This document shows positions 1 through 45,639 of a DNA stretch of 64,000 nt, piece after piece. The DNA lies in IMG/VR virus record IMGVR_UViG_3300031951_015091, positions 1 through 64,000 of that record. The stretch is one strand, 5' to 3'. This DNA is from a virus. The notes under the pieces were generated by a model. It saw nothing but the letters and a program-made list of their open reading frames with translations, had not been told where the DNA came from and searched no databases. Both the position numbers and the translations under genes were made by a program. Position 1 is the stretch's first letter; every line of letters begins with the position of its first letter.

Positions 1-302
1 AAAATAGCATCTCTGTTTGTAGAAGATGCTCCAACTGGATCTCTATCACACAAAGGTGCACCAACATAAGCTGCAAGAGGTATAATTATATCAGCTTGTT
101 TTAGAATTGGCAATAGGTCTGCTTCTACTCTTACATCACCACGATAAATCCTAAAATTTGGGTGATAGCATAATTGGCCAAGTGATGATTGTTGGTACAT
201 AAAATTATCTAACACAGTAACATTATGACCTAAACCTAATAGGTCTTGTGATAACATCGACCCAATATAACCTGCACCACCTGTAACTAATATATTTGCC
301 AT
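1..302 (-). CDS. NAD-dependent epimerase/dehydratase (extended SDR), C-terminus outside window
   Basis: Only the first 100 or so residues are present; the gene runs off the left edge. The N-terminus MANILVTGGAGYIGS carries the Rossmann glycine motif TGGAGYIG (residues 7-14) of extended short-chain dehydrogenases, followed by an acidic strand end (VLDNF) that would bind the NAD(P) ribose and a second strand with AAYVGAP, the usual AA-x-VG segment of nucleotide-sugar epimerases/dehydratases. It starts 2 bp past the stop of the ColD-like gene, so it is the next gene of the same sugar operon. A nucleotide-sugar substrate is likely from family and context; epimerase, dehydratase or reductase cannot be told apart without the Ser-Tyr-Lys part. 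Confidence 0.85.
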   Translation of the reverse strand, partial: MANILVTGGAGYIGSMLSQDLLGLGHNVTVLDNFMYQQSSLGQLCYHPNFRIYRGDVRVEADLLPILKQADIIIPLAAYVGAPLCDRDPVGASSTNRDAI

Positions 303-303
303 A

Positions 304-1473
304 TTAAGCCTCGTTTAATGTTTTGGTAATAAAATCAATTTCATCTAATTGCATTGATGGGAAATTACCAATATAAAATCCATAAAAATGAATATGTTCA
401 GTATTTGGAAAATTCAAATGATAGTTTTCTGGCACAATATTTTTAAGGTATGGTTGTCTTGTTTGATTACCACCACCTGCACTTCCACGGCGAAATTCAA
501 TGCCTTCTTCTTTCATTCTCGTCATAATTCTATTTGCGAAATCTTGGTCTTTATCATTGAGTATTAGATTGAAAGCATAGTTACTAGAGCCTATTAATTT
601 AAAGCCAGTAAAAAATTTCTTTGGGCTTAACTTAGATAAAAACCTTTCGTGATTTCTATTCCGTAGTTTAACATTTTCATTTAATTTTGGCAACTGTGAA
701 AGACCAAGTATACCGCCTAAATCGGTGTTACGCATATTGTATGCTGGGTAAGCAAAGATAAAATCAGGATTCAACTGTGGGTATTGTATCTTGTAAGCCA
801 GTTTCATTTTTTCATTACCACATTCTCTGACCATACCATGTGAACGAAGCATGCGAATTGTATTGTAAACTTCTTCATCGTTGGTACAAACCATACCGCC
901 TTCAATCGTTGTCATATGGTGTGCGTAATAGAAAGAGAAATTGGACATCCATCCAATACTGCCGCAAAGCTTCTCTCCGTGTCTTGCGCCATGCGACTCG
1001 CAAACATCTTCAATCAATGGAATGTTGTTTCTAGCTAGAGTTGATATGAGATCATCAGTTAATGCATTAAACCCTTGAATATGTGATAAAAATACAGCAC
1101 GGGTATTTGGAGTAATTGCACGAATGATAGAATCAGGATTCATACCTAAAGTGTCCATATCCACATCAACGAATACTGGTGTAAATCCACATTGAATCAC
1201 AGAGGCAACATCAGATATCCATGTTAAAGGTGGAACAATTACTTCACCGCCTTGTGGATATTTTATCTTCAACATGGTCATTGATAATAAATTGGCAGAT
1301 GCGCCAGAGTTTACAAATACGGAATACTTTACGCCTAACCATTTCGACCAAGCTTCTTCAAACTCTCGGCATTTTGGACCGTTAGTTAGAATAGGGTCAT
1401 CTTGTTTTAGATGCTCAATCATGGCATCTAAATCTTGTCTTGTAACATTATTTCTCATCAAAGGAAATTTCAT
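304..1473 (-). CDS. DegT/DnrJ/EryC1-fold PLP enzyme with His in place of the Schiff-base Lys (ColD-like sugar 3-dehydratase)
   Basis: 389 residues, full length for the DegT/DnrJ/EryC1/StrS family. N-terminal substrate loop, NSGASANLL (residues 55-63) for PLP phosphate binding, and IEDVCESHGA (154-163) with the Asp that binds the pyridine nitrogen. At the position where aminotransferases have SFxxxK, the protein reads SFYYAHHMTTIEGG (180-193), so H185 replaces the lysine. This substitution is the hallmark of the sugar 3-dehydratases ColD (GDP-4-keto-6-deoxymannose) and E1 (CDP-hexulose), which remove a hydroxyl rather than transaminate. I therefore infer a C3 deoxygenase on a 4-keto nucleotide sugar. 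It lies between the GHMP kinase and the SDR gene. An ordinary aminotransferase is unlikely without the lysine. Confidence 0.85.
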   Translation of the reverse strand: MKFPLMRNNVTRQDLDAMIEHLKQDDPILTNGPKCREFEEAWSKWLGVKYSVFVNSGASANLLSMTMLKIKYPQGGEVIVPPLTWISDVASVIQCGFTPVFVDVDMDTLGMNPDSIIRAITPNTRAVFLSHIQGFNALTDDLISTLARNNIPLIEDVCESHGARHGEKLCGSIGWMSNFSFYYAHHMTTIEGGMVCTNDEEVYNTIRMLRSHGMVRECGNEKMKLAYKIQYPQLNPDFIFAYPAYNMRNTDLGGILGLSQLPKLNENVKLRNRNHERFLSKLSPKKFFTGFKLIGSSNYAFNLILNDKDQDFANRIMTRMKEEGIEFRRGSAGGGNQTRQPYLKNIVPENYHLNFPNTEHIHFYGFYIGNFPSMQLDEIDFITKTLNEA

Positions 1474-1480
1474 TTTAACC

Positions 1481-2470
1481 TCACGAATTGTTTAATATAA
1501 CTTGAGTACCATGATTATCGAACTTAAATGGCACCCATACCTTTATTTGTTCCATCTTTAACTTGAATTCTTTTTGTTGATCTGGCGGCACAAGAAACAT
1601 AAAGAAACCGCCGCCGCCTGCACCCATTAGTTTACCACCATAAGCACCACTTTCAATGGCTGTATAATATATGTCATCTATCCATGGTTCAGTAACACCA
1701 TCTGCTAGACCTCGTTTAATTTCCCAAGCTTTGTGCATCAACTCACCTATTATAAACATTTCTTTTTCTTTGGCAAGCATATCGATAGCTTCGTTTGCTA
1801 AGTTTACCGTTTCTAATAAAAGACTATCTGTTTTGCCTTCTTTGATATTATCTACCTTTTTCTTTGCTTGAATTTCTGAGTGTCGAGAAACACCAGAAAA
1901 ACCAAGCATGATGTGTGATTCTAGATATGTTTTATAATCTAAATTCATTTTAAATGATTTGGCATCCCAACCTTCACTCGACATAGAAATAACTTGAATA
2001 CCGCCAAGTGCAGACATAATTTGATCTTGTATGCCAACATTTTCGCCAATAATATCTTGTTCAACTTCAATGGCTCTTTCTGCTAATTCTTTCTGTGTTA
2101 AATTATATTTCTTTAAACGATAGATTGCATTTAACAAACCTACTGTAAAGGTTGATGATGAACCAATACCAGACCTTGCAGGTAAATCACCTTCATGGCT
2201 AATAGAAATGTTTTCTGTTATATTGGTGTATTGCAAACAAGCACGTATAGCTGGGTGATCAATATCTTCTATTGAATTAACATTTTCTATTTTTGAATAA
2301 GTTAAACGAATGGTATGGTCAAAAAATGGCGGCAATTCTTTTATATGAACATAACAGTAATGTGCCATTGCAGCAGATATACATTTACTTGGATGTTTTG
2401 AAAACCAAGCAGGGTAATCGGTGCCGCCACCAAACAAAGAAAGTCTATAAGGAGTTTTTGTAATAATCAT
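1481..2470 (-). CDS. GHMP-family sugar kinase, D,D-heptose-7-phosphate kinase-like
   Basis: 329 residues, typical of the GHMP kinases. N-terminal TPYRLSLFGGGTDYPAW (6-22) is the substrate-binding start shared with HddA-type D-glycero-D-manno-heptose 7-phosphate kinases; GDLPARSGIGSSS (94-106) is the ATP-binding GHMP loop; KLMGAGGGGFFMF near residues 280-292 is the third GHMP motif. Family knowledge: these enzymes phosphorylate C1 of heptose 7-phosphate or similar sugars, before nucleotidyl transfer. The start ATG overlaps the stop of the preceding TPP gene by 4 bp, so the genes are translationally coupled. Heptose kinase is my preferred reading; fucose/galactose-type kinase is the alternative. 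Confidence 0.85.
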   Translation of the reverse strand: MIITKTPYRLSLFGGGTDYPAWFSKHPSKCISAAMAHYCYVHIKELPPFFDHTIRLTYSKIENVNSIEDIDHPAIRACLQYTNITENISISHEGDLPARSGIGSSSTFTVGLLNAIYRLKKYNLTQKELAERAIEVEQDIIGENVGIQDQIMSALGGIQVISMSSEGWDAKSFKMNLDYKTYLESHIMLGFSGVSRHSEIQAKKKVDNIKEGKTDSLLLETVNLANEAIDMLAKEKEMFIIGELMHKAWEIKRGLADGVTEPWIDDIYYTAIESGAYGGKLMGAGGGGFFMFLVPPDQQKEFKLKMEQIKVWVPFKFDNHGTQVILNNS

Positions 2471-2997
2471 TTTTCATTGTAATAGTCACCCCACTCTACA
2501 AGAATTGTTGAACGATTATCATCACGCAACAATGCTTTTACATAAGCAGGAAAAATTTGAAAGGGTTCATCTAAACGGATAACTTCAACCGTTTTACACA
2601 TCGATTTAAATGCTTCAGTAAAATCTCCCACATGTTGACATTGTGGGTGTAAAGGTCTTTCTGAACCAATACTGGTACGAATAATCACATTGGCCTTATA
2701 CTTAGACATTAAGGAAAGTTTATCCACATGATTTACTAATTGACTAACAGCACATAGTAAAAAGTTCCATCGTGGATAAATTGAAATTGGAATACGACCA
2801 TGTAATGCCATACCTAATGACATACCCATTTGCATTTCTTCTGCAACAGGCAATTCAATAAGTTTATCTTTCGATACATCTTTTAGTGTGTTAGACATTC
2901 CTGTGCCTGGTACAGCAACCGCTTGGCCAAGAAAAACAGTTCTATCATCGTTAGCCAAATATTCCATTGACCGTTTTAATTCATCAAAGTATTTCAA
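2467..2997 (-). CDS. Transketolase pyrimidine-domain protein (E1-beta-like, short)
   Basis: 176 residues matching only the first domain of 2-oxoacid dehydrogenase E1-beta/transketolase Pyr proteins: N-terminal MKYFDELKRSMEYL followed by DDRTVFLGQAV aligns with the E1-beta start, and ELPVAEEMQMGMSLGMALHG contains the Glu that activates the TPP aminopyrimidine. The usual C-terminal transketolase domain (about 120 residues) is missing. Start is TTG, overlapping the upstream stop (TTGA); the next ATG would delete the conserved N-terminus, so TTG is favoured. It must work with the E1-alpha-like neighbour to make one TPP active site. Probably an acyl or ketol transfer enzyme in sugar synthesis rather than a true pyruvate dehydrogenase, since no E2/E3 is near. 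Confidence 0.8.
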   Translation of the reverse strand: MKYFDELKRSMEYLANDDRTVFLGQAVAVPGTGMSNTLKDVSKDKLIELPVAEEMQMGMSLGMALHGRIPISIYPRWNFLLCAVSQLVNHVDKLSLMSKYKANVIIRTSIGSERPLHPQCQHVGDFTEAFKSMCKTVEVIRLDEPFQIFPAYVKALLRDDNRSTILVEWGDYYNEK

Positions 2998-3593
2998 AAT
3001 TGTACCCTCACTCCAGCACCAGCATGTGGATATTTGGTTTCGTATTTGTAATAGTAAATCATATCGGTATTATAATTTTCATAAGACAATTCTTTATCAT
3101 TCCATACTTCTCTTGTATCTGTACAAACTGATTTACCATTATCTTCAATAATAAATTTAATAGGTAAATTATATTGAATTGCATACTTCATTGATTCATA
3201 TGCAATTCCTGTTTCTGAAGTCATATCACCTAAAAAACAATAAACTTTAGAATCACCATTACTTTTTTTAATTGACATAGCTGTACCTACTGCAATTGGC
3301 AAAACTCCACCCACAATAGCAGAAGAATATATTTTATATTCTGGAAAACAAAGTGAGATAGAACGACCTTCTAAAATTTCTTTTTCTATTTCATCAGCAG
3401 GCACACCTTTTAGTAAGCATTGATAGTGTGAACGCCAAGAACAAAATACCCAATCTTGTTGGCGAACATCTTTAAATACATTAATTAGTTCATCTTCATT
3501 ACCATAATAGAGATGAACCGGTGATCGTATTTTTCCATTATTAAATTGGTCAGCAATACGATTTTCAAAATCAATTAGTTCTTGTTTAGTCAC
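2994..3593 (-). CDS. TPP-binding protein, E1-alpha-like (short)
   Basis: 199 residues, shorter than usual E1-alpha subunits (about 320-370). Visible: WRSHYQCLLKGVP early, the GGVLPIAVGTAMS segment, and the TPP diphosphate/Mg motif GDMTSETGIAYESM ending in EDNG (GD-x(n)-N). These define the PP domain of TPP enzymes; the partner Pyr domain is the next gene. GTG start, overlapping the radical-SAM stop by 8 bp. Split alpha/beta TPP pairs occur in pathways that attach two-carbon branches to deoxysugars (for example avilamycin-type octose genes); I infer a similar role here because the neighbours are ColD-like, GHMP kinase and SDR. Acetoin/pyruvate dehydrogenase is the alternative but lacks context. 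Confidence 0.82.
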   Translation of the reverse strand: MTKQELIDFENRIADQFNNGKIRSPVHLYYGNEDELINVFKDVRQQDWVFCSWRSHYQCLLKGVPADEIEKEILEGRSISLCFPEYKIYSSAIVGGVLPIAVGTAMSIKKSNGDSKVYCFLGDMTSETGIAYESMKYAIQYNLPIKFIIEDNGKSVCTDTREVWNDKELSYENYNTDMIYYYKYETKYPHAGAGVRVQF

Positions 3594-5100
3594 CTAATAT
3601 TTTCCTTTTCAAACGAATCTTTGACATTTCCTCTACATTCTGCCTTGATTGTAGGCCAAATTTATTTTCTACTAATTCTAAAAATGGTTTGTGTGAGAAG
3701 TAAGTATGCCATGCATCATCACGAAACTTTAATACTTCGGCACCAGATAACGATTTAGTTCTCAATGGTTTACAATCATATGATAAGAAAGCAAACTCAT
3801 CAAAAGTTTGTGGCAATTCCCAATTATTGTTTTTGGCTTCCATATACAATGGACTACCAGGTAATGCCATTGCTGCATAGAAGTTTGCGTGTTCACAGTT
3901 TAATTCTAAAGCTAAATCTAAAGTTTCTTGCATCGTTTCTTTGGTATCTTCTGGAAATCCAAACATATAATTACCAAGAACATTAATGTCAGCGTCTTTA
4001 ATTTGTTTTACAACTTCACGGATGTTTACTTGTTTGAATCTACCTTTGTCAATTTCTAAACGCACTTGTTGATTACCTGATTCAATGCCAAGTGCCAACC
4101 AATTTACGCCAGCATCTTTAAACAATTTCAGTTGATCTTCACGAACAGAATCTACTCTTGCATAAGCCCAAAAGTTAAATTTCATTCCTCTAGCCACAAT
4201 GCCTTGTAATATTGGCACATAATATTTTTTATTTAAAAAGAACATCTCGTCTGTAAGGCGAATAGTTCTAACTCCATTTTCATACAGGTACTCTAATTCT
4301 TTTAACATTAATTCTGCTGACCAGAATCTCATACCACGACTATCAGCTGATACGATACCTTCTTCGTATGAAGTTCTATTCACGATGTTAATCATACAGA
4401 AGTTACAACCAAATTGGCAACCTAATGATGTATAAATTGCCGCAAACGGTGTACGGCCTTCTTCTAAAAAATTAGTATGCCAATAGTGAGCTCTGTATTT
4501 GTCTAAAAGGTTCTTATCTTTAGGTAATAAGTCCCAAGCATAACCTGGCATTATAACATCCATGTCATCAGTCTTTACTATACAACCGCTTGTTGTAGGT
4601 CTTGGAAGTCCATGTTTTTTATACCACATACCACGAACATTATCTAAATCATTTTCTAAATCTGTTTCTAATAAATCTAAAAGACCATATACACCTTCAT
4701 TGATAAAAGCAAAGTCAACATACTTGTATTGAATTACCTCATGTGGTAATGCAGATGTATGTGACCCAATAAATGCAGTTTTTAAATTTGGATGTGATAA
4801 TTTGAGTTGAGTAGCCAGAGATTTGGCACCAATCATCATTGTGGTGCCTGAATTTGGATTTTGTCCGTAGAGAACAAATACTACCAGTTTTGGTTTTGTT
4901 GCTGCGATTTGTTCTGCCGCATCTTCATCAGTTGCAGGACAAGCATCAAAATCTAAAATGCATGGATCATGGCCTTTAACACGAACTGCGGATGCCAGCA
5001 ATGCTGCCCATGTAGGCATTTCAATTGCTGAATATGTTTTTGCTAAATCTTGGTAGGCTTTTGCGGCACTACTTGGTACCACGAAACACACATTTGCCAT
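3586..5100 (-). CDS. Cobalamin-binding-domain radical SAM protein
   Basis: 504 residues. The N-terminal 150 residues have the Rossmann-like B12-binding pattern (VVFVLYGQNPNS, AFIGSHTSALP, FAFINEGVYGLLDLL) but no DxHxxG base motif, as in many class B enzymes. The radical SAM cluster motif is CQFGCNFC with C228, C232 and C235, followed by RTIRLTDEMF and LGIESGNQQVR barrel strands and YMFGFPEDTKETMQ. The C-terminus is a helical tail of unknown role. First gene of the sugar cassette; upstream leader (5101-5124) has a TATAAT hexamer and an octamer CTAAATAT (5120-5127) but no clear -35. Chemistry (methylation or rearrangement of a sugar or lipid) cannot be deduced. Confidence 0.88.
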   Translation of the reverse strand: MANVCFVVPSSAAKAYQDLAKTYSAIEMPTWAALLASAVRVKGHDPCILDFDACPATDEDAAEQIAATKPKLVVFVLYGQNPNSGTTMMIGAKSLATQLKLSHPNLKTAFIGSHTSALPHEVIQYKYVDFAFINEGVYGLLDLLETDLENDLDNVRGMWYKKHGLPRPTTSGCIVKTDDMDVIMPGYAWDLLPKDKNLLDKYRAHYWHTNFLEEGRTPFAAIYTSLGCQFGCNFCMINIVNRTSYEEGIVSADSRGMRFWSAELMLKELEYLYENGVRTIRLTDEMFFLNKKYYVPILQGIVARGMKFNFWAYARVDSVREDQLKLFKDAGVNWLALGIESGNQQVRLEIDKGRFKQVNIREVVKQIKDADINVLGNYMFGFPEDTKETMQETLDLALELNCEHANFYAAMALPGSPLYMEAKNNNWELPQTFDEFAFLSYDCKPLRTKSLSGAEVLKFRDDAWHTYFSHKPFLELVENKFGLQSRQNVEEMSKIRLKRKILGD

Positions 5101-36838: not shown

Positions 36839-37141
36839 TTAAAATGAGCCTCCGACTATTATTGTAACTGGTGGTTTTATTTCGTATTTTCCTGTGTCCG
36901 CATTAAACACAACACTATCTCCATCTTCAGCTGAGCCAGTAACATCAACAAGTTCTGCTAAAGCAACATTTGGTTTTGGTCGGAAATTTTGCGAAATCAT
37001 TACTGATTTGTTTGTTTGAGTAATTCGTACTTTGCCTAAAAGATTTATTTGAGGCTCAGCAACATTTGCACTTGGTGTAAAATTTTGTGATGCTAATTTA
37101 GGTTTAACACCTGGCCGTATTCTAATTGCGCCTATATCCAT
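36839..37141 (-). CDS. Small virion protein with duplicated SQNF motif
   Basis: 100 residues. Two copies of one unit: AIRIRPGVKPKLASQNFTP and KVRITQTNKSVMISQNFRP, each followed by NVA, about 36 residues apart, then GDSVVFNADTGKYEIKPP, a fibre-attachment type segment. Related to 27969-28298. Overlaps the next upstream gene (TAATG). Probably a small fibre adaptor. Confidence 0.7.
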   Translation of the reverse strand: MDIGAIRIRPGVKPKLASQNFTPSANVAEPQINLLGKVRITQTNKSVMISQNFRPKPNVALAELVDVTGSAEDGDSVVFNADTGKYEIKPPVTIIVGGSF

Positions 37142-37473
37142 TATCGTGTTATTCCAGGTAGAACATTTACTATGCCTTCAACAACTCTTGTTCTTGTGGT
37201 ATCTGGAGCTGTAATAACCAAATCATACAAATATCTTCCGGGAGTTATATTTGCAGTATTGGCTGCTGTCATCGTGAGAGTGATTTCACCATTTGAGATG
37301 CCCGTAACTGTTGCGGTAAAGTTATTGGCTACTGAAGAATAATATGATTTTCTTATTTGAGATGCAGCGGTATAACCTGCCAAGTTAATTGAATCACCGC
37401 CAATATCATCAACATTAATTATGACAGAAAAAGACGCATTTTGTTCGATATTAAGTTCTGAATAAGCAGCCAC
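37141..37473 (-). CDS. Small beta-sandwich fibre-base protein
   Basis: 110 residues from a GTG start, set by GGGAG 6 bp upstream. ELNIEQNASFSVIINVDD, then DSINLAGYTAASQIRKSYYSS, ITLTMTAANTANITPGRYLYDLVI and a closing EGIVNVLPGITR resemble BppU-like N-terminal baseplate/upper-fibre domains found in many phages. Its ribosome site lies in the 3' arm of a hairpin whose loop holds a late promoter (37480-37512). Confidence 0.75.
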   Translation of the reverse strand: MAAYSELNIEQNASFSVIINVDDIGGDSINLAGYTAASQIRKSYYSSVANNFTATVTGISNGEITLTMTAANTANITPGRYLYDLVITAPDTTRTRVVEGIVNVLPGITR

Positions 37474-37479
37474 AAATTA

Positions 37480-37512
37480 CTCCCGTTTTATCGTCTATTT
37501 AGTTAAAACGGG
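37480..37512 (-). promoter_or_regulatory. Hairpin masking the ribosome site, with late promoter in its loop
   Basis: Minus strand: 5' arm CCCGTTTTA (37512-37504), 13-nt loop containing CTAAATAG (37502-37495), 3' arm TAAAACGGG (37490-37482). The 3' arm contributes GGG of the ribosome site GGGAG (37484-37480) for the GTG at 37473. Read-through RNA would fold and hide the site; RNA begun from the loop promoter, about 6 bp on, would lack the 5' arm and be translatable. T4 genes e, soc and 49 are known to work this way. Confidence 0.65.
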
Positions 37513-37527
37513 TACTTACCAAAAAAT

Positions 37528-38355
37528 CTAATTTAAACCCATTTCTTGACGAATTTTAGTGGCTGATATTGAATGAATTGTATCATCAAAGGTTTCTTGT
37601 TCGATTTTATAACCAACATCTCGTCCATAGGTTATATTGACAATATTTGGCACAAGAAGAATTTCATATTGACCTTGATAAAGGGGGTCGAGGTCTTTCT
37701 TAATGAGTTCTTTAACTTGGTTTGACGCAAAAGGATTTGATCCATTCCAACCTTGGCAATCACGAATCATAATTACAACTTGTCCTGTCTTAGAGATTGC
37801 TCTATCAAATAAAGCCCTATGCCCTTTATGCCAAGGTTGCCATCTACCTAACATTTGAACAGTTTCTTTCTTCCAATCAAAAGTTGGCCGGCGCCGGTCA
37901 GAAAGTATATGGTCACCAACAAATTCTACCCACTTCTCCGCATTTTGTTCTGTTATACGAAAATCATAAACCTCTGGAGGAACAAAAACTTTATTTGTAT
38001 CTTCAAATCTACCTTTTTCGATTGTGTCGATCCATATGGTCCAATCTGCTTTAAAATTATGCCTCATTTCTGGTAATGGAGCTATAAAATCTGCAATAAC
38101 AAAATCTTTTAAAAAAGAATCTGCTAACTCTCTCATTCTGATTGATTGACGTATTCTGCCTTCATTAGAGAAATCCCAATCATTATATTTTTTTCTTACA
38201 TCGTCTGCATTTATCCACTTAACTTTAGCTCTAGTTTCACCAACATTATCAGCCATATTAAAAAATTCTGAATGATCCTCTAGATATTTTTTTAATTTTT
38301 CTGCAAAATATGTTTTACCAGATCCTGGTAATCCCATTATCAATATTCTTTTCAT
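37528..38355 (-). CDS. APS-kinase-like / HxGH adenylyltransferase fusion
   Basis: 275 residues in two domains. Residues 1-150: P-loop GLPGSGKT (8-15), then INADDVRKKYNDWDFSNEGR and IRQSIRMRELADSF, VIADFIAP, TIWIDTIEKGRFEDTNKVFV, the block order of APS kinase (CysC). Residues about 166-275: LGRWQPWHKGHRALFDRAI with HKGH at 176-179 and SISATKIRQ near 262-270, the HxGH and IS-x-T-x-x-R signatures of nucleotidyltransferases. Next to a sulfotransferase gene (4 bp overlap), so PAPS supply is plausible. The second domain is shorter than ATP sulfurylase and looks more like NMN- or cytidylyl-type transferases, so its substrate is open. Confidence 0.82.
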   Translation of the reverse strand: MKRILIMGLPGSGKTYFAEKLKKYLEDHSEFFNMADNVGETRAKVKWINADDVRKKYNDWDFSNEGRIRQSIRMRELADSFLKDFVIADFIAPLPEMRHNFKADWTIWIDTIEKGRFEDTNKVFVPPEVYDFRITEQNAEKWVEFVGDHILSDRRRPTFDWKKETVQMLGRWQPWHKGHRALFDRAISKTGQVVIMIRDCQGWNGSNPFASNQVKELIKKDLDPLYQGQYEILLVPNIVNITYGRDVGYKIEQETFDDTIHSISATKIRQEMGLN

Positions 38356-39143
38356 ATTTTATAATCTTTCTCCATTTCAACAAAACGATTGTAAAGTTCT
38401 TCTCCTAAAATTTCTTTTGGATCTTTAGCTGTCTTTTGTAGTTTTGGCCTAATTGTATGTAATCCTTCAATACCCCAAGCAAGTAAATCAGCATCCTGCG
38501 TATCATTTTCTATATCATCAAAATTATAATTCCATTTTGGTAGTTCTAAAAATTCTTCAATTTTTTGTATTTGTTTTATTGGTTGATTAATAAGATCATC
38601 ATAATTCACAATTACAATTTTGTTTGGCGCCTCTATTTTAATTTGTTTTAAAACTTCCATATCTTCTTTAACTATTTCATACCAGATAAATCCCATTCGA
38701 GTATCATCATTTATTAAACAGTTATTTTCGTGTAGTATCTTATCTACATTTGAAGTTATATCTTTTTTAATTAATGAAAGCCAACTTGCCATTACACTTG
38801 GTAAATCTCTTTCTGTTACTATAGCTTTCATTTCTCTACCAAATAATTCCGAAGCATATAACATATTTTTTCCCCAAGCTCTGTCTTTATCGATTATTAT
38901 TGGTTCTGAACGATGTTTCCAAAAAGCAGGAAGTATTGCTTTTGTTATATTATTAATTTGTTCAACAAAACGATTTGCATTAACTGCTGGTTCTTTATCC
39001 CATATTTCTTGAAGTTTTGAAGTTACTTGAAGCATAGGAGAAGTTGGAGTAACATAAACATTTGGATTCTGATTTAAAATTGAAGCTAAAACAGTTGATC
39101 CTGATCTTGATAGTCCTGCCATAAAGTGATAAGTTTTATCCAT
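38352..39143 (-). CDS. PAPS-dependent sulfotransferase
   Basis: 263 residues. Near the N-terminus YHFMAGLSRSGSTVLASIL is the 5'-phosphosulfate binding loop; PIIIDKDRAWGKNM and KAIVTERDLPSVMASWLSL correspond to the 3'-phosphate binding part (RD-x-x-x-x-x-S). The end is helical (LGEELYNRFVEMEKDYKI). Transfers sulfate from PAPS to a hydroxyl of a sugar, lipid or peptide. Cytoplasmic: no signal peptide. Start codon overlaps the stop of the Cys-cluster gene (TAATG). Substrate unknown; its neighbours suggest a glycan or a fibre protein. Confidence 0.88.
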   Translation of the reverse strand: MDKTYHFMAGLSRSGSTVLASILNQNPNVYVTPTSPMLQVTSKLQEIWDKEPAVNANRFVEQINNITKAILPAFWKHRSEPIIIDKDRAWGKNMLYASELFGREMKAIVTERDLPSVMASWLSLIKKDITSNVDKILHENNCLINDDTRMGFIWYEIVKEDMEVLKQIKIEAPNKIVIVNYDDLINQPIKQIQKIEEFLELPKWNYNFDDIENDTQDADLLAWGIEGLHTIRPKLQKTAKDPKEILGEELYNRFVEMEKDYKI

Positions 39144-39502
39144 TATTTTAAAGTCATATTTGGTATATTTGGGTGATGATTTTTACGACAGTCAAATTGA
39201 CGACAAGCTATTGGCCTATCTTCATATATTGAACATTTACCATTAATGAACATACCACATCCACCTTCTTTTTTTCTATAGAGAACAATTGTTGGACCAA
39301 CATTTGGGTTTATTTCTAAATGACCTTCATTTGGATTTAATAAGCTGATTGGATATTTACCAGAAGCAACTTCTTCAATTGTAAGATATGGAGATAATTT
39401 TTCACAACAAAAAGTGCAAGTACCGCAAGGCACTTCGGATATTTCTTCATCGGATCTAATTGAAGTTATATTAATATTTTTTATATCAAAGTTAATTTTC
39501 AT
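39143..39502 (-). CDS. YkgJ-type cysteine-cluster protein
   Basis: 119 residues. CGTCTFCC (C26, C29, C32, C33) is the CxxCxxCC motif of the YkgJ/zinc- or iron-chelating family, followed by GGCGMFINGKCSIYEDRP and ACRQFDC, the second half of the same metal site. Family function is uncertain (metal binding, sometimes beside modification enzymes). Overlaps the TPR glycosyltransferase end by 11 bp, within the enzyme cassette. Confidence 0.88.
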   Translation of the reverse strand: MKINFDIKNINITSIRSDEEISEVPCGTCTFCCEKLSPYLTIEEVASGKYPISLLNPNEGHLEINPNVGPTIVLYRKKEGGCGMFINGKCSIYEDRPIACRQFDCRKNHHPNIPNMTLK

Positions 39503-40799
39503 GTAGGTATTCTTTAAGCTCTGCTAAAGGTAGATCCCAATTATCATATCGTTTTTGTCTAAAAATAGTAAGATTATCATTATACCATTTTGTTTTATGA
39601 CCAGGTATTGCCCAAGTATAATAGTTTAAAAGTGGTGTTAAAACCACAGAAAGTTTTCCCATAGCTCCTGCTGCATGAATCAAAGAGGTGCAACTAGAAA
39701 CAACTATGTCCATTTGATCGATATAGTCGAAGGTATCATCCCAATTTTTAATTTTGTCTTTTAAATTAATCACTCTTGGATGATTAAAATCTTCATCCAT
39801 GTGAAAGGAATAAATTGTATAATCTTCTGGAATACAATCTATCATTTGCTCAAAAGGAACAGTTCGATGAAGGTCTTGGTCATAGTGTGGATTTCCCATC
39901 GATTTAATACCAATTTTTTTCTTACCTTCTAATTTTGGCGCTTTTCTGATGGGTGACAAATATGGCCCATACCATAATTCATTTTGTTCTAGTTCTAAGT
40001 AACTAGGTACAGGCATCGAATATGTCCATAACCAATCGTCTGGTAATTGTTTGACATTTGACATGCAAGGAAAACCACATCTTTCAAATATATTAATAAC
40101 GGCTTTACTGTTTGAAAACCATATAGGATTTAAACCTCTTTCTTTAAGGTGCTTCATAAACCTTACAGAGATAATCTCATCACCAATACCGCCTTCAGCG
40201 CAAACAAGTATGGTTTTTCCTTTTGCTGGTTCTCCTTGCCAAAGATTAGTTTTTGGAAAAGGAAATTCATGCCAAGAATTAAACGCTCGACCTCCTAACA
40301 AGACTTCTCTCAAACCTTTTTTAAATAATCCATTTCTCAGATCATATGTGCCAAGATTAAATTTTACTTTTCTACCAAGTTCTTCATCGTGAGGTTTAGT
40401 TAGAATATCCCTTAAAACTTTTTCACCTAAATCTTTTCGATCTAATAAAAAATAAGTAAAAGCTTCTTCCATTCTAAGTTCTGGATCATCAGGATTATCT
40501 TTTAGAGATAATTGTATAAATTTTAAAGCATCTTCAGGTTTGTTTAGTTGAAGGTAACCTCTTATAATATTTGTTCTTACTTTATATTTTTCTTCTGTTG
40601 GTAAAGAAAAATCATTATACATCTTTAATGCTATTTTTAATGATCCATCAAAACTTTTACATCTCACATATAATTGTCCTAATTCATCAAAATGCTCTAT
40701 ATTTTGAGCATAAGGAAACATTAGATCTAAAACAATTTTAGCTTTTTCTTTTTGATTAATGTCAATAAGAAATTTAGCTGTTGATAGAGGATCATTCAT
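39492..40799 (-). CDS. TPR-domain glycosyltransferase (GT-B, GT9/OGT-like)
   Basis: 435 residues. The N-terminal 150 are tetratricopeptide-like helices (EHFDELGQLYVRCKSFDGSL, IIRGYLQLNKPEDALKFIQL). The C-terminal part is GT-B: GKTILVCAEGGIGDEIISVR (GDE loop, as in heptosyltransferases and O-linked transferases of bacteria), WFSNSKAVINIFERCGF, and DIVVSSCTSLIHAAGAMGK for the donor nucleotide. TPR-GT fusions of this kind modify proteins or build surface glycans. Part of the overlapping enzyme operon. Acceptor and sugar unknown; tail-fibre glycosylation is my inference. Confidence 0.85.
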   Translation of the reverse strand: MNDPLSTAKFLIDINQKEKAKIVLDLMFPYAQNIEHFDELGQLYVRCKSFDGSLKIALKMYNDFSLPTEEKYKVRTNIIRGYLQLNKPEDALKFIQLSLKDNPDDPELRMEEAFTYFLLDRKDLGEKVLRDILTKPHDEELGRKVKFNLGTYDLRNGLFKKGLREVLLGGRAFNSWHEFPFPKTNLWQGEPAKGKTILVCAEGGIGDEIISVRFMKHLKERGLNPIWFSNSKAVINIFERCGFPCMSNVKQLPDDWLWTYSMPVPSYLELEQNELWYGPYLSPIRKAPKLEGKKKIGIKSMGNPHYDQDLHRTVPFEQMIDCIPEDYTIYSFHMDEDFNHPRVINLKDKIKNWDDTFDYIDQMDIVVSSCTSLIHAAGAMGKLSVVLTPLLNYYTWAIPGHKTKWYNDNLTIFRQKRYDNWDLPLAELKEYLHEN

Positions 40800-41295
40800 T
40801 TTTTTCTTCTAATCTAAAAATTTGTACTAAGCCGCCTGAAAAAGAATGAAACAACCATGGTCTAAACAAAACGCCTTGGCCTGGTTTAAAATCATAAGAT
40901 ACAATTAAATCCCAATCATGTAAATTTCTATAATTCAATTTATATTCTTCTAAAGCAGTTTTAGGACCGTTTAAATTTTCATAGATGTTTAACAAAGTCC
41001 TGTCTAATGCTACAACAAAAATCCATTCGTTTAATTTTTCAAAACTTTCAAAATGAATAAAAGGAAAAGGATGCCTAAAAATTCCTGATTTTTCTTTATT
41101 GACAATAACATTAGTGCCTAAAACAATTTTAAATCTTTCTTCAATATCTTTAGGTATCATATTGAAATCTGGTATTTCTTTTCCAAATTCTTTATCTACA
41201 AAGCTCAAATTGCTAGTAATATTGCCAATATTTGTAGAATCTTCTCTTGTAATAAAATCGTCTACACTAATTATTTTAACTAATCGATGTAACAT
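40792..41295 (-). CDS. Possible 2OG-Fe(II) oxygenase-like cupin-fold protein
   Basis: 167 residues, weakly similar to small phage double-stranded beta-helix proteins. H81-F-E83, H150 and R161 (FIHFESF ... LFHSFSGGLVQIFRLE) fit the H-x-D/E ... H ... R metal and 2-oxoglutarate pattern, with the Arg 11 residues after the distal His as in that family. Strand-rich between 70 and 165. Stop overlaps the next gene by 8 bp. A hydroxylase acting on a sugar or peptide would suit the context; if the motif is chance, it is simply an unknown protein. Confidence 0.6.
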   Translation of the reverse strand: MLHRLVKIISVDDFITREDSTNIGNITSNLSFVDKEFGKEIPDFNMIPKDIEERFKIVLGTNVIVNKEKSGIFRHPFPFIHFESFEKLNEWIFVVALDRTLLNIYENLNGPKTALEEYKLNYRNLHDWDLIVSYDFKPGQGVLFRPWLFHSFSGGLVQIFRLEEKNE

Positions 41296-41297
41296 CT

Positions 41298-41882
41298 TTA
41301 AGTATTAGCAACTTGATACATTATATTTTGTGGTTCATCTATTTTATGAACCGACCATGTTATTAATATTTCAGCAATAACATTATTATGTGTTCTGGAA
41401 GCATGAATACATTGTTCATCATTATAATTTTTGAATATTTTGTCCCAATAAGGATCAAGAACAAACTTATAATCTATAACACGCATATCAACATCGTGAA
41501 TTAATCCAAGAGGAGTTTCACTTCCGCCGCTTTTAATGTCTTCCTTATTTCTTTTTTTGGAAAACATATCAAGAGTGTGGCTATAGATTGCTCTTTTATG
41601 TGTGGGATCTATGAGGAAAATATCATGTCGAGGATGAGGAACTCTAATATCAATTTGAGTGCCGTGTTTACAAACACGAAAAAGTTCTTTAATGCAATGA
41701 AAAAAACCATCACCTAAGTGTTCAAGTATGTGGTGTGCAATCACATGGTCTACACTATCATTATCAAAAGGCAAATTATCCCGTTCTAAATCTAGAACAT
41801 GATCTGGTTCAGAACCAGCATAACTGTCTATATTAATATAATCGGGAATTCTTTTGTTGCCTGAACCAATATTTATTTTCAT
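41298..41882 (-). CDS. Class I SAM-dependent methyltransferase
   Basis: 194 residues. MKINIGSGNKRIPDYINID is motif I plus the ribose-binding Asp; LPFDNDSVDHVIAHHILEHL with FFHCIKELFRVCKHGTQIDI gives motifs II-III of the Methyltransf_11 type seen in surface-polysaccharide clusters. The ATG at 41880-41882 is chosen because AAAGGTGAT lies 6 bp upstream; a GTG 9 bp earlier is possible but would overlap that site. First gene of the six-gene enzyme cassette, right behind a sigma70 promoter. Substrate unknown. Confidence 0.85.
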   Translation of the reverse strand: MKINIGSGNKRIPDYINIDSYAGSEPDHVLDLERDNLPFDNDSVDHVIAHHILEHLGDGFFHCIKELFRVCKHGTQIDIRVPHPRHDIFLIDPTHKRAIYSHTLDMFSKKRNKEDIKSGGSETPLGLIHDVDMRVIDYKFVLDPYWDKIFKNYNDEQCIHASRTHNNVIAEILITWSVHKIDEPQNIMYQVANT

Positions 41883-41904
41883 AATTATCACCTTTAAACA
41901 TGAA

Positions 41905-41933
41905 ATTATAACACATCTTTATTTATTTGTCAA
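41905..41933 (-). promoter_or_regulatory. Consensus sigma70 promoter of the enzyme cassette
   Basis: Minus strand TTGACA (41928-41933), 17-bp spacer, TATAAT (41905-41910): both hexamers are perfect and the spacing is ideal. The -35 overlaps the end of the upstream RCC1 gene (stop at 41930). The spacer includes AATAAATA, one base off the late octamer. Expected start near 41898, 16 bp before the methyltransferase ATG. Confidence 0.88.
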
Positions 41934-43183
41934 TAATACAAATTAGAAATAGCGGCAATTGTATTGTTTCCACTTAAATATGGTGTAAAAAGTTTTGAGC
42001 TGGAGATTGTACTCCATTTTCTGTCTGTGACTATTTGAACAGGAGAAGATACTCCTATTGCACCTCTTGTACCTTGTGGAGATTCTTGATTATTTCCAAA
42101 TACTCCGGCTTCATTTCTTCCCCAAGCCCATAATGTTCCATCTTCTTTAAGAGCAAAAGAAGTATCTTGTGAAACGGAAATTTCTGTCCAATCACTTCTA
42201 CTGGATATTTGTGTTGGAGAAGATCGTTGTGCTAAACCTAAGCCAGCTTCTGATCCAATTAAAGGCAAACCTAATTGTCCATAACCATTAGATCCCCAAC
42301 CCCAAAGAGTTCCATCGGTTTTAATAGCTAAAAAATGTATGTCTGCTGCTAGCGAATTTGGCCCAGCAATTTTTTTCCAATTAGTTGAAGAATCGAATTG
42401 AACCGGAGAAGATCGGTCTACTTTTATTCCTAAACGCTCTTGAGTTTGGCCCCAAACCCAAAGAGTTCCGTCAACTTTAATAGCTGTCACTACATTTTGG
42501 CGTGAAGAAGGATTAACAAATTTCCAAGTCCTGTCTAATCCAATTTGAACTGGAGAAGATCGATGTAAAAGAACACCACTATTAATACCTAAAGTACCAT
42601 AATCATTAGAACCCCAAGAGTATAATCTACCTTCATCTTTATCGCCTCTAATAGCAAATGTTGTATCTAATCCACAAACAACATATTTCCACCAAGTGTT
42701 TGATCCAATTTGAACAGGAGAAGATACACTAATACTTATGCTAGTATTAGTTCCTAGTTGACCGTATTCATTTCTTCCCCAACTCCATAATGTTCCATCC
42801 GTTTTTACAGCGCTACTATGTGCATTACCAGCAGATATATGAGCCCAATTTGTATCAACTCCAATTTGAACAGGAGAAGATAAATTGATTGTTGTGCTAT
42901 TTCCTAATTGGCCATATTCGTTTTTTCCCCAACTCCATAATGTTCCATCCGTTTTTAACGCTAAGGCATGACCAGATATATCAATTTCTTTCCAAAATTG
43001 GGAAGATTGTAATTGTACAGGTGATGATCTGGAAATTGTTGTTCCGTCACCAATAATACCAGATCTTCCGTCAGGTGAATTATCTCCCCAAATGAATATA
43101 TGACCAAATTTTGTTACCCTTTTTAAAATATTAGGTTTTAAAAATCTAGAAGTAACGTCTTTATTCCTCGATCTATATGTCAT
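41930..43183 (-). CDS. RCC1-type seven-bladed propeller protein A
   Basis: 417 residues. After a basic 27-residue N-terminus (MTYRSRNKDVTSRFLKP) there are seven repeats of the RCC1 type, each with SSPVQI, a W about 7 residues later, and KTDGTLWSWG plus NEYGQLG. Seven units close one beta-propeller. RCC1 domains are protein- or ligand-binding platforms; in phages similar proteins are tail-fibre or receptor-binding candidates. No signal peptide. Third of three tandem paralogues; the conserved blade core and varied loops suggest selection on a binding surface. Confidence 0.88.
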   Translation of the reverse strand: MTYRSRNKDVTSRFLKPNILKRVTKFGHIFIWGDNSPDGRSGIIGDGTTISRSSPVQLQSSQFWKEIDISGHALALKTDGTLWSWGKNEYGQLGNSTTINLSSPVQIGVDTNWAHISAGNAHSSAVKTDGTLWSWGRNEYGQLGTNTSISISVSSPVQIGSNTWWKYVVCGLDTTFAIRGDKDEGRLYSWGSNDYGTLGINSGVLLHRSSPVQIGLDRTWKFVNPSSRQNVVTAIKVDGTLWVWGQTQERLGIKVDRSSPVQFDSSTNWKKIAGPNSLAADIHFLAIKTDGTLWGWGSNGYGQLGLPLIGSEAGLGLAQRSSPTQISSRSDWTEISVSQDTSFALKEDGTLWAWGRNEAGVFGNNQESPQGTRGAIGVSSPVQIVTDRKWSTISSSKLFTPYLSGNNTIAAISNLYY

Positions 43184-43189
43184 TTTGTT

Positions 43190-44416
43190 TTAACCAAAAA
43201 AAGTTTCATCTTTTATACCAACAAATCCAGAAGCGACAGATGATACACTTACCCAATTATTGGCCCAATCAGTCCTGCTAGGATTCCACGAACCAAATAA
43301 AACAGGTGAACTTTCTGGTCCTGTTACGCCGAGCCTATATCCGTTAAAAGGTACGTTACTGCCCCACCCCCAAAGAGTTCCATCCGCTTTGATAGCCATA
43401 TTATAACGAAAAACTTCTACCCAATCGTTTGATGTTCCAATCTGTACCGGAGATGATTTTGCCGATCCAGTACCAGGCGGTTCATTTAAGAAACTTCCTC
43501 CCCAAGCCCATAATGTTCCATCGGTTTTAACTGCTGTAGCGCTGATCTCTGATCTTATTACTGATTTCCAATTATTTTCTGTACCAAGTTGTACAGGTTC
43601 TCCCCGCGTATCAGAATAACCGCTAGTAGAATTTCCAAACCCTCCGTAAAAATTTTGACCCCAAATCCAAAGAGTCCCATATCTATCAATTACAGCATAG
43701 GTGTCTACTAATTTACTCCAATCTCTGGATGATCCAATTTGGGTTGGAGAGGAAAATATTGTAATATTATTAATATCAATGCCCCATTTCCAAAGAGTTC
43801 CATCTGATTTGAGAGCAAACGCTCTGTGATTACCCTGATCAGATTTTACAGATACCCATTTATTATCTGTACCTATTTGTGTTGGAGAAGATACGTTGTT
43901 GGATAAAGATCCAAAAGTAAAAGATGGTGGACCATAACCTAATTGGGCTCTATAATTATGCCCCCAAGACCAAAGAGTTCCATCGGTTTTAATAGCAAAG
44001 GTTGAATATATACTTCGTTCTACCATTAACCAGTTAGTATCTGCTCCAATTTGAGTAGGAGAAGATTTTCCTTGCAAGAAGTTTGATGTATTATCTCCAA
44101 TTTGACCATAATCGTTTGCACCCCAACCCCAAAGAGTTCCATCCGACTTAATAGCGTGAACACCTAAAGCATCACAAGAAATTGAAGCCCAACCAACTCC
44201 ACTTCCAAGTAAAACGGCAGATGATCGATAAGTTTGATCATTAAGACCTAATTGGGCTCGATCATTTGCGCCTAAACCATAAAGATAACTTTGTAAAGGA
44301 AAATCTCTAATATATCCATAGTTGTCAAATAATCTAGTCGTAGACACATATGATCCAAGTGAAGTATTGGATATATCTGTTGTGGTGCTATTTTGAGTAA
44401 TGAGATAATTAGTCAT
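43190..44416 (-). CDS. RCC1-type seven-bladed propeller protein B
   Basis: 408 residues. N-terminal 48 residues (MTNYLITQNSTTTDISNT ... IRDFPLQSYLYG) differ from A and C and may be the attachment segment. Seven RCC1 units follow, with SSPTQI/SSPVQI marks (the first and the fifth degenerate: RSSAVLL, GEPVQL) and DGTLWSWG cores. Gaps to its neighbours are 6 and 5 bp, so A, B and C form one operon. Likely role as for A. Confidence 0.88.
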   Translation of the reverse strand: MTNYLITQNSTTTDISNTSLGSYVSTTRLFDNYGYIRDFPLQSYLYGLGANDRAQLGLNDQTYRSSAVLLGSGVGWASISCDALGVHAIKSDGTLWGWGANDYGQIGDNTSNFLQGKSSPTQIGADTNWLMVERSIYSTFAIKTDGTLWSWGHNYRAQLGYGPPSFTFGSLSNNVSSPTQIGTDNKWVSVKSDQGNHRAFALKSDGTLWKWGIDINNITIFSSPTQIGSSRDWSKLVDTYAVIDRYGTLWIWGQNFYGGFGNSTSGYSDTRGEPVQLGTENNWKSVIRSEISATAVKTDGTLWAWGGSFLNEPPGTGSAKSSPVQIGTSNDWVEVFRYNMAIKADGTLWGWGSNVPFNGYRLGVTGPESSPVLFGSWNPSRTDWANNWVSVSSVASGFVGIKDETFFG

Positions 44417-44421
44417 TTGTA

Positions 44422-45639
44422 TTATTTAAAACCTGGATCTTTTAAAGCCAAAAAATTTACACTACCCGTCACGCCTGAGGCCGACTGGATTGTAGAAATC
44501 TTTCTAAATCCAACATTTGATGTAACGGGTATTGGGGCAGTCGCATGAAGTGTCAAGAGTTGAACTGGAGATGATCGATAAGGAATCCATGTTCCGTCAG
44601 CTGTATTTGAAGGATTATAACTCCATGTGCCCCAAACCCAAAGAGTTCCATCTGATTTTATGCCCATACCGTGATTGCTACCAGAAAAAAACTTGTTTCC
44701 GCCAATTTCCACATATCTCCATGGAAGTTGACCATTACCTTGTCCAAGCACCTGAACAGGAGAGCTTCTAGAAATATTTGTACCATCACCAAGTTGTCCT
44801 ACTGTATTACTTCCCCAAGCCCATAATGTTCCATCGGTTTTAAATGCTGTAATTCCTCCAGAATTAACTGATCTCCAATTCGTGTTTGCTCCAATTTGAA
44901 CGGGTGACGAATACTCTTTACCAAATGGAGAAGTTTCAGCCGGATTTAAACGAGCAGCGTTGCCCCATAACCAGAGAGTTCCATTTGATTTAATAGCTGC
45001 TCTAACAGAACTAGAACTACTAATATATTTCCAATTTGTGTTTGTTCCAATTTGAACAGGAGAGCTTCTGGGAATTATCGTATTATCACCAACTTCACCA
45101 TTAGAATTAAAGCCCCAAGACCAAAGAGTTCCATTATTTTTAAGGGCTAATCCATATTCTATTGCAAACCAATCATTTGAACTACCAATTTGAGTAGGAG
45201 AAGAACGATCAATTAGGTCACCAAGACCTAGGCCACCAACATTATTAAGCCCCCAAGACCAAATAGTTCCATCAGTTTTAACAGCGTTAGCCACATAACT
45301 GAAAGCTGAAATTTTTTTCCAATTTCTGTTTGTTCCAATTTGAACTGGTGATGTAATATTTGTTCCTGGAGCACTTCCAGTATACCATTGTGGGTCATAT
45401 CCGTAAGCCCATAATGTTCTATCCGATCTGATAAGAAAAGCATAATTTGAGCCTGGATCTCCCTCTATTTCTCTCCAAGAAGCTGAGTTTGCTGTTACAT
45501 CATAAAATTTTTCTCCATTGCTATTTCTATTGTAATAATGCCATACTGTTCCACCAATGGTTATACTATCTAAAAATTCAAGATCGGTATCAATTGCATC
45601 GCTTAAAAGATCTTGATCAGTATTAACTTTAAATACCAT
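44422..45639 (-). CDS. RCC1-type propeller protein C
   Basis: 405 residues. MVFKVNTDQDLLSDAIDTD and VWHYYNRNSNGEKFYDVTAN form a distinct N-terminus; similar HYYNxNxxGE-type segments occur in phage fibre proteins. Six clear SSPVQ units plus one N-terminal unit without it (WREIEGDPGSNYAFLIRSD, RTLWAYG) give seven blades. The start overlaps the end of the S74 chaperone gene by 11 bp, linking the propellers to a fibre-maturation gene. Confidence 0.87.
   Translation of the reverse strand: MVFKVNTDQDLLSDAIDTDLEFLDSITIGGTVWHYYNRNSNGEKFYDVTANSASWREIEGDPGSNYAFLIRSDRTLWAYGYDPQWYTGSAPGTNITSPVQIGTNRNWKKISAFSYVANAVKTDGTIWSWGLNNVGGLGLGDLIDRSSPTQIGSSNDWFAIEYGLALKNNGTLWSWGFNSNGEVGDNTIIPRSSPVQIGTNTNWKYISSSSSVRAAIKSNGTLWLWGNAARLNPAETSPFGKEYSSPVQIGANTNWRSVNSGGITAFKTDGTLWAWGSNTVGQLGDGTNISRSSPVQVLGQGNGQLPWRYVEIGGNKFFSGSNHGMGIKSDGTLWVWGTWSYNPSNTADGTWIPYRSSPVQLLTLHATAPIPVTSNVGFRKISTIQSASGVTGSVNFLALKDPGFK

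Follow-up and report, generated by a model that had tools for sequence, protein, structure and literature searches.

What six enzyme genes are doing among the fibre genes of a T4-like phage is the question raised by a stretch of viral DNA of 64,000 nucleotides (nt), called here the window (positions 1 to 64,000 of IMG/VR record IMGVR_UViG_3300031951_015091). The window is contained in an 82-kb virus record, and the genes in question lie in the structural half of the phage. There, positions 41891–37528 of the minus strand are filled by six open reading frames (ORFs). The order on this strand is three RCC1-repeat fibre genes, then MTASE, OXY, TPRGT, CYS, SULF and KIN, and then an LtfC-like virion gene. 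A first reading made from the letters alone (the sequence-only reading) had described six overlapping enzyme genes at this place. All six were found to be real, with overlaps at four of the five junctions (8, 11, 1, and 4 nt) and a 2-nt gap at the first. The proteins flanking the block match IMG/VR contig 3300031857_016023 at 99–100%. We consider it quite probable that the block is a modular glycosylation-and-sulfation cassette with a sigma70-type promoter of its own, and possibly a late one too, in which KIN would make 3′-phosphoadenosine 5′-phosphosulfate (PAPS) for SULF, the likely target being the RCC1 fibres or their glycans.

KIN, the last gene of the cassette, had been labelled an APS-kinase fusion (APS, adenosine 5′-phosphosulfate) in the sequence-only reading. 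The kinase part of this label was borne out, as KIN matched PF01583 (APS_kinase) with 26.5 bits against a cut-off of 21.1 (E = 7.4e-6). As a whole the label now seems too modest, since KIN appears to be a complete PAPS-making enzyme. The AlphaFold model of KIN had a predicted local distance difference test (pLDDT) score of 88 when 32 aligned sequences were used, and of 70 with close relatives only. When the model was searched with Foldseek, the first 41 rows were all APS kinases or PAPS synthetase. In the VIA table, which covers KIN residues 1–155 only, the Z score was 17.6 to APS kinases and 14.4 to the next family, gluconate kinase. By its model, the N-terminal half of KIN is thus predicted to fold as an APS kinase. 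Human PAPSS1 could be aligned past this half (1xjq, 233 columns, root-mean-square deviation (rmsd) 11.4; 1xnj, model range 1–275, rmsd 15.9), and the whole-length alignment is weak because these rmsd values are large.

The other half of KIN carries the HxGH and ISxTxxR signatures of a nucleotidyltransferase (NTase), together with a nearly invariant NIxYGRxVGY motif. Its Pfam match to CTP_transf_like fell just under the cut-off. Similarity to the best-scoring nicotinamide mononucleotide (NMN) adenylyltransferases ended before their second half, and the equivalog cut-offs for NadM and NadR were not reached (TIGR01527, 26.9 against 181.2; TIGR01526, 18.3 against 341.15). Compared with the canonical bifunctional PAPS synthetases, KIN was found to have the APS kinase domain and to lack an ATP sulfurylase domain (PF01747 or CysD/CysN). 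As the second half is not PF01747, KIN would work like a PAPS synthetase without being a member of the canonical family. From its motifs and matches, we take the NTase half to be a small NadM-like nucleotidyltransferase and not a canonical ATP sulfurylase.

The surroundings of KIN were then compared among phages. The loci studied were the best 80 of at least 598; dereplication reduced them to 65, of which 53 had 3 kb upstream. KIN is strongly conserved, its identity across the 80 being 72–82% once the two closest loci are set aside, while the neck proteins encoded downstream were 28–72% alike. A sulfotransferase lay upstream of KIN in 31 of the 53 non-redundant loci, against 1 of 45 neck loci without KIN (p = 5.6e-10), as judged by a profile trained partly on KIN loci; it was present in 22 of the 24 KIN loci that also carried RCC1. 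The control loci came from a search anchored on the neck gene, which gave 80 loci, 49 of them with at least 3 kb upstream: four had KIN (two with a sulfotransferase) and 45 did not. In a Pfam tally independent of the profile, no family was more frequent among the 145 proteins encoded upstream of KIN than the sulfotransferases PF13469 and PF00685, with 12 each. Sulfotransferases were not among the 25 of 72 families listed for 142 control proteins, which were chosen by similar, not identical, rules, and an unlisted family would cover at most one control protein.

KIN homologs were also found in cells. In some SAR11 and SAR116 bacteria the two halves are fused, in SAR86 and many SAR11 they are separate genes side by side, and elsewhere the NTase occurs alone; an adjacent kinase–NTase gene pair was seen in 6 of the 11 SAR11 regions read. 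The profile matched a sulfotransferase in 8 of 80 cellular KIN loci. Four profile matches were put to Pfam, and three were confirmed (L111, L119, and L177, in each of which the sulfotransferase adjoins KIN), with no match for L142. On haloarchaeal plasmids, an APS kinase is fused to a homologous NTase bearing GRxVGY and ISxTxxR, at 25–28% identity to KIN over 97–98% of its length. All three haloarchaeal fusions scanned passed the curated apsK cut-off. In each of the four regions opened, out of nine haloarchaeal records, a sulfotransferase gene preceded the fusion, either immediately or with a short gap or a single small ORF between them. A Rhodoferax plasmid had a tail fibre assembly gene, a sulfotransferase, and the kinase half only; matches on Cupriavidus and Methylosinus plasmids were kinase-only with no sulfotransferase listed, and that on a Microvirga plasmid fell in a region without annotation. 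Two other cellular neighbourhoods may be recorded: a SAR11 kinase–NTase pair (L202) lies near DddP-like and methanethiol-oxidase-like genes, both below curated cut-offs, and a lone NTase (L208) lies near permeases of TauE/SafE type, as read by eye.

The stand-alone NTase was found beside the genes of APS reductase. In two SAR116 loci (L151 and L157) it heads aprM-aprB-aprA, the order in L151 being NTase, AprM, AprB, AprA, two ORFs (x258 and x116), and CysC, the last a bona fide APS kinase. In the SAR11 order, meaning the order to which G007 belongs (the genome that contains L109, Pelagibacteraceae), coordinates placed the NTase one AprM-AprB length before aprA in at least 14 of 247 genomes, and eight of these were read in sequence. 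The 44 apr loci comprised 10 known or chosen for adjacency (six fetched, with L207, L211, L151, and L157) and 34 others, some of them known to carry the NTase elsewhere; in 8 of the 34, the kinase–NTase pair faces aprMBA. Across the 247 genomes, the KIN family was matched in 195 and aprA in 199 (180 both, 15 KIN only, 19 aprA only, 33 neither), with p = 1.8e-16, a value that, like the others, makes the case look too strong, because the genomes are related and possibly incomplete and the KIN profile can catch canonical APS kinase. PF01747 was over the cut-off in 13 of these genomes and CysD in 10. Neither was found in 189 of the 199 aprA genomes, and 171 of the 189 had a KIN-family match; all 10 CysD genomes lacked both the KIN family and aprA. 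It seems moderately probable that this NTase adds a third kind to the ATP sulfurylases Sat and CysDN, that it partners AprBA in SAR11 and SAR116 (APS + pyrophosphate → ATP + sulfate), and that, when fused to an APS-kinase domain, it gives a compact PAPS synthetase that phages have spread as the hub of a fibre-sulfation cassette.

A 132-aa ORF before aprM, read in L216, was considered as a diverged NTase and rejected, as it is a HIT-family protein (L216:2702–3100). Its gene takes the place directly ahead of aprM that the NTase occupies in other SAR11, and further SAR11 apr loci have an equally long ORF before aprM. As some members of the HIT family act on APS, this protein may be an alternative APS-consuming step.

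The families of the other five genes were examined in the same manner. Pfam upheld the methyltransferase, the Cys-cluster protein, and the sulfotransferase proposed earlier, while the TPR matches were below the cut-off and no Pfam match was obtained for the glycosyltransferase or the oxygenase. For TPRGT, the hits in the 60 PDB rows listed covered the TPR part, save a marginal match to an N-acetylglucosaminyltransferase (E 0.07, profile positions 340–385). OXY had no match in PDB either. Its H81, E83, and H150 are invariant across 12 aligned homologs, and we take them to fit the HX(D/E)...H triad of 2-oxoglutarate (2OG) oxygenases; on these residues and this motif, OXY is likely to be a 2OG oxygenase. 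SULF scored 54.2 bits with PF13469 against a curated cut-off of 27, as expected of a PAPS-dependent sulfotransferase domain. Its closest relative among solved structures is protein-tyrosine sulfotransferase 1 (TPST1), a resemblance for which we call SULF TPST-like. The coordinates of all features are collected in Table 1.

Table 1. Features of the cassette and its borders (positions of the window; aa, amino acids; SAM, S-adenosylmethionine).
Feature	Positions	Strand	Remarks
KIN, proposed compact bifunctional PAPS synthetase	37528..38355	-	275 aa; from sequence, fold, and context
KIN residues 1-155, APS-kinase-fold P-loop domain (predicted)	37891..38355	-	VIA; PF01583 over cut-off
KIN residues 160-275, small HxGH nucleotidyltransferase, proposed ATP sulfurylase	37531..37878	-	GRWQPWHxGH ... 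NITYGR[DG]VGY ... ISATKIR; closest PDB families NMN adenylyltransferases
SULF, sulfotransferase	38352..39143	-	PF13469 E=3.1e-14; TPST1 E=1.7e-4
CYS, CxxCxxCC metal-binding protein	39143..39502	-	PF03692 E=6.7e-8, over cut-off
TPRGT, TPR repeats and glycosyltransferase-looking C-terminal domain (by eye)	39492..40799	-	TPR below Pfam cut-off
OXY, probable 2OG-Fe(II) oxygenase-like protein	40792..41295	-	H81, E83, H150; missing at this place in closest relative L002
MTASE, SAM methyltransferase	41298..41882	-	ATG 41882, GTG 41891 also possible; PF08241 E=1.7e-5; phrog_6636 methyltransferase 2.7e-12
Sigma70-type promoter TTGACA-17-TATAAT	41905..41933	-	12/12 match; TG before -10 (extended -10)
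AATAAATA, late-promoter-like octamer within sigma70 spacer	41920..41927	-	fits NATAAATA; also in L002 and L188
ACTAAATA, late-type octamer ahead of LtfC-like gene (37141-37473)	37496..37503	-	by eye
Three RCC1-repeat fibre genes directly upstream of cassette	41930..45639	-	ORF list; Pfam run on nearest gene

The perfect TTGACA-17-TATAAT promoter that the sequence-only reading had placed directly before the cassette was confirmed, with the correction that its TTGACA shares nucleotides with the stop codon of the RCC1 gene before it. It is the sole perfect match with 15–19-bp spacing in the window, where 0.22 were expected. At least one perfect match occurred in 19 of 100 shuffles of the window, so the whole-window count alone is not significant; for a perfect match (16–18 bp) in its own 80-nt junction, the chance was about 2.3e-4 by first-order resampling. 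The promoter is intact in L002, where the adjoining RCC1 gene is just 71% identical, and in L188. In L082 and L083 a perfect promoter with 17-bp spacing stands at the equivalent place, the spacer being unrelated, and the match is 11/12 in L086, L096, and the Synechococcus phage S-SRM01. Among fibre-to-enzyme junctions, 7 of 24 reached a score of at least 11/12, compared with 10 of 183 junctions of other kinds (one-sided p = 0.001), in a set that was dereplicated yet still holds homologous junctions (L001, L188); the other 17 of the 24 were below this score. A chance promoter was rejected on this recurrence, both in relatives and at fibre-to-enzyme junctions. The 124-kb relative G001 has five perfect matches, three within genes and two intergenic, namely that of the cassette and one at L196:1501–1529 (G001:33493–33521). 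The latter precedes an ORF of 496 aa, read by eye as a metallopeptidase-like non-structural protein.

The sequence-only reading had further contrasted this promoter with late-type octamers at the neighbouring genes, and had concluded that the cassette is expressed early and separately. The contrast held in part. The LtfC-like gene does have such an octamer, ACTAAATA; the RCC1 genes have none, and the spacer of the cassette promoter itself holds one, AATAAATA. The pattern NATAAATA is modelled on the T4-type late promoter motif. All 11 of its copies in the window are on the minus strand, and 8 of them precede a gene by no more than 60 nt. No other copy was found on the minus strand between 41928 and 54568, and hence none before the three RCC1 genes. 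The 11 copies are fewer than the mean of 20.4 in shuffles, so the pattern is not enriched, and the late-promoter label depends on the copies standing ahead of genes and on the T4-type motif. With an octamer inside the cassette promoter and none before the RCC1 genes, early and separate expression is not implied. The promoter site may serve both phases, and dual early and late use would fit the sequence equally well. In the gap between KIN and the LtfC-like gene, no terminator-like site was reported on the minus strand. An inverted repeat, CCCGTTTTA...TAAAACGGG, was seen there by eye at about 37480–37515 of the window, with ACTAAATA in its loop and without a T-run.

Presence or absence of the genes at the same site in relatives, as expected of the moron-like block first proposed, was indeed found. 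L002, which is 80–98% identical outside the RCC1 genes, is without OXY. L188 (40–89% in the virion genes listed) has MTASE, TPRGT, and CYS directly followed by LtfC, with OXY, SULF, and KIN missing here. In L193 and L194 (33–52% where matched), the stretch between the tail genes and LtfC matched neither RCC1 nor any of the six enzymes. Both a promoter-like sequence of its own and presence or absence in relatives, two marks of a swappable cassette, were thus found. The cassette DNA itself had no match in the phage collection. The cassette reads as a swappable phage glycan/sulfate module among the fibre-side modification loci of phages.

The same enzymes were linked to fibre genes and to one another. 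A fibre gene, RCC1 or other, is directly beside OXY in 18 of the 20 loci found with OXY alone; of the remaining two, the window's own contig has a fibre gene one gene away, and L098 begins inside OXY. A frequent order in these relatives is RCC1-OXY-RCC1-MTASE-TPRGT-CYS. SULF and the C-terminal part of TPRGT form a single protein in all 10 long ORFs tested, from 10 relatives. A further fusion, at L025:7037–7999, joins OXY to a second KIN-like kinase half with a seemingly degenerate P-loop. With these fusions and the shared linkage to fibre genes, the enzymes look like one pathway tied to fibres. From the above we infer the following scheme. The C-terminal nucleotidyltransferase of KIN would join ATP and sulfate into APS, the APS-kinase-like N-terminal half would phosphorylate APS to PAPS, and SULF would then transfer sulfate from PAPS to the target. 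TPRGT, MTASE, and OXY would act on this same target, adding a sugar, a methyl, and a hydroxyl group. Since the enzymes keep company with RCC1 genes, the RCC1 fibres, or a glycan on them, seem to us the most likely target.

Several findings weigh against KIN as a maker of PAPS. In a profile comparison with PDB, NMN adenylyltransferases came closest to the NTase half (E 2e-8, across the first half of it) and no ATP sulfurylase was matched, and Pfam gave no PF01747 match in KIN. The score of KIN for NCBIfam apsK was 19.3 bits, far below the cut-off of 138.7, and its APS specificity is therefore putative. The partly KIN-trained profile found no sulfotransferase in 22 of the 53 KIN loci, and Stenotrophomonas phages carry a 40% identical homolog without an annotated sulfotransferase nearby, most of the neighbours being hypothetical. 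Among cellular genomes, the NTase was not near apr in 26 of the 34 loci not chosen for adjacency; the KIN family is present in 10 of the 13 genomes with PF01747, so that only CysD is mutually exclusive with it; and some of the 195 KIN-family genomes may owe their match to canonical APS kinase, as happens in L151. The NMN adenylyltransferase resemblance and the Stenotrophomonas phages would suit a NadR-like KIN, combining nicotinamide riboside kinase and NMN adenylyltransferase, that restores nicotinamide adenine dinucleotide and is unrelated to sulfation. We regard this as very improbable, given that the kinase half has the predicted APS-kinase fold, that the resemblance stops half-way with the NadM and NadR cut-offs far off, and that in haloarchaea a sulfotransferase gene accompanies a fusion of bona fide APS kinase with a homologous NTase, while aprMBA clusters contain the NTase too. 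KIN might instead form the nucleotide donor of a group other than sulfate, such as a sugar or something like a phosphoramidate, for which HldE and the CysC-like kinase of Campylobacter are models. CysC-like kinases with other substrates do exist, one SAR11 copy (L108) adjoins a GmhA-like sugar isomerase (by eye), and the sulfotransferase is missing from some KIN loci; set against the sulfotransferase and APS-reductase linkages that recur across phages, bacteria, and archaea, the proposal appears improbable.

The target has a rival of its own. The cassette could alter the host surface early, through a sulfated or glycosylated envelope glycan that excludes rival phages, the RCC1 linkage being modular co-inheritance. 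A sigma70-type promoter that recurs in some relatives would agree with this, as would the sugar-precursor genes of the window (a DegT aminotransferase and a heptose-kinase-like GHMP kinase). It is nevertheless rather unlikely in view of the fibre gene directly beside OXY in nearly all of the loci counted above, often with OXY between two RCC1 genes, of the likeness of SULF to protein sulfotransferases, and of the late-type octamer within the promoter. The sequence-only reading had offered host-surface exclusion and modification of the RCC1 fibres as two possible purposes; the frequent RCC1 linkage and the TPST-like SULF make us lean towards the fibres.

The proposed PAPS-making cassette was compared with known systems. 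Human PAPSS1/2 is a fusion of APS kinase and ATP sulfurylase, and KIN would have the same two activities in the same order, with an APS-kinase fold; KIN has 275 aa as against about 600, and its second half is NadM-like and not PF01747. S-SRM01 (MW015081) shares RCC1-type fibre genes, a TPRGT homolog, a sulfotransferase, and the 11/12 promoter match, which lies before TPRGT. Its intervening genes are different, it has no KIN homolog in the 17 kb read, and it is not among the five phage records with one. The kinase genes of the Stenotrophomonas phages Suzuki and DLP_6 (compare phrog_10255 'kinase') encode full-length KIN homologs but are outside any fibre-enzyme block; in Suzuki, a tail-fibre gene lies about 4 kb away on the other strand. 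TPST1 resembles SULF at an E value of only 1.7e-4, and SULF is phage-borne. The logic of a PAPS maker with a sulfotransferase is that of bacterial RaxST with RaxPQ, where RaxST is the sulfotransferase and RaxPQ the PAPS maker. The SAR11 AprBA system, which converts sulfite to APS, is preceded by the stand-alone NTase in some SAR11 and SAR116, and differs in serving cellular sulfite oxidation.

Elsewhere in the phage, the tail sheath was closest to those of Pelagibacter, Stenotrophomonas, and Methylophilales phages. A cyanobacterial host was considered and not backed: G001, whose record is linear and may be a fragment, gave no psbA-type match. Positions 1–5100 of the window hold an NAD-dependent epimerase-like gene (by eye), the DegT aminotransferase, the heptose-kinase-like GHMP kinase, a split pair of transketolase/E1 type, and a B12-radical SAM protein, and this sugar/precursor cluster may feed TPRGT. 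Outside the cassette, in the relative G001 at L199:59–2616 (G001:117679–120707), holo-ACP (acyl carrier protein) synthase, acyl carrier protein, fatty-acid desaturase, and ketoacyl-ACP synthase stand consecutively, as judged by eye from the translations; the row reads as a phage fatty-acid or polyketide mini-cluster.

In a 2023 paper, the function of phage sulfotransferases was stated to be unclear (PMC10580990). With PAPS of its own making and a sulfotransferase, a phage could sulfate its own fibres or the host surface. KIN would, if its activity is confirmed, be an unusually small PAPS synthetase of unfamiliar build. A search that lay outside most subscription journals and all preprints found no paper assigning ATP sulfurylase activity to the KIN NTase family or describing a phage PAPS synthetase. 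According to published work, Candidatus P. ubique has aprBA without sat, with sulfite detoxification as the proposed role (PMC5069961), and in some SAR116 genera sat occurs together with aprABM (PMC8547437). If the NTase is an ATP sulfurylase, this would offer a direct answer to why SAR11 keeps AprBA without sat. It would also bear on whether sulfite oxidation can yield ATP in SAR11, which is among the most abundant bacterial groups of the ocean.

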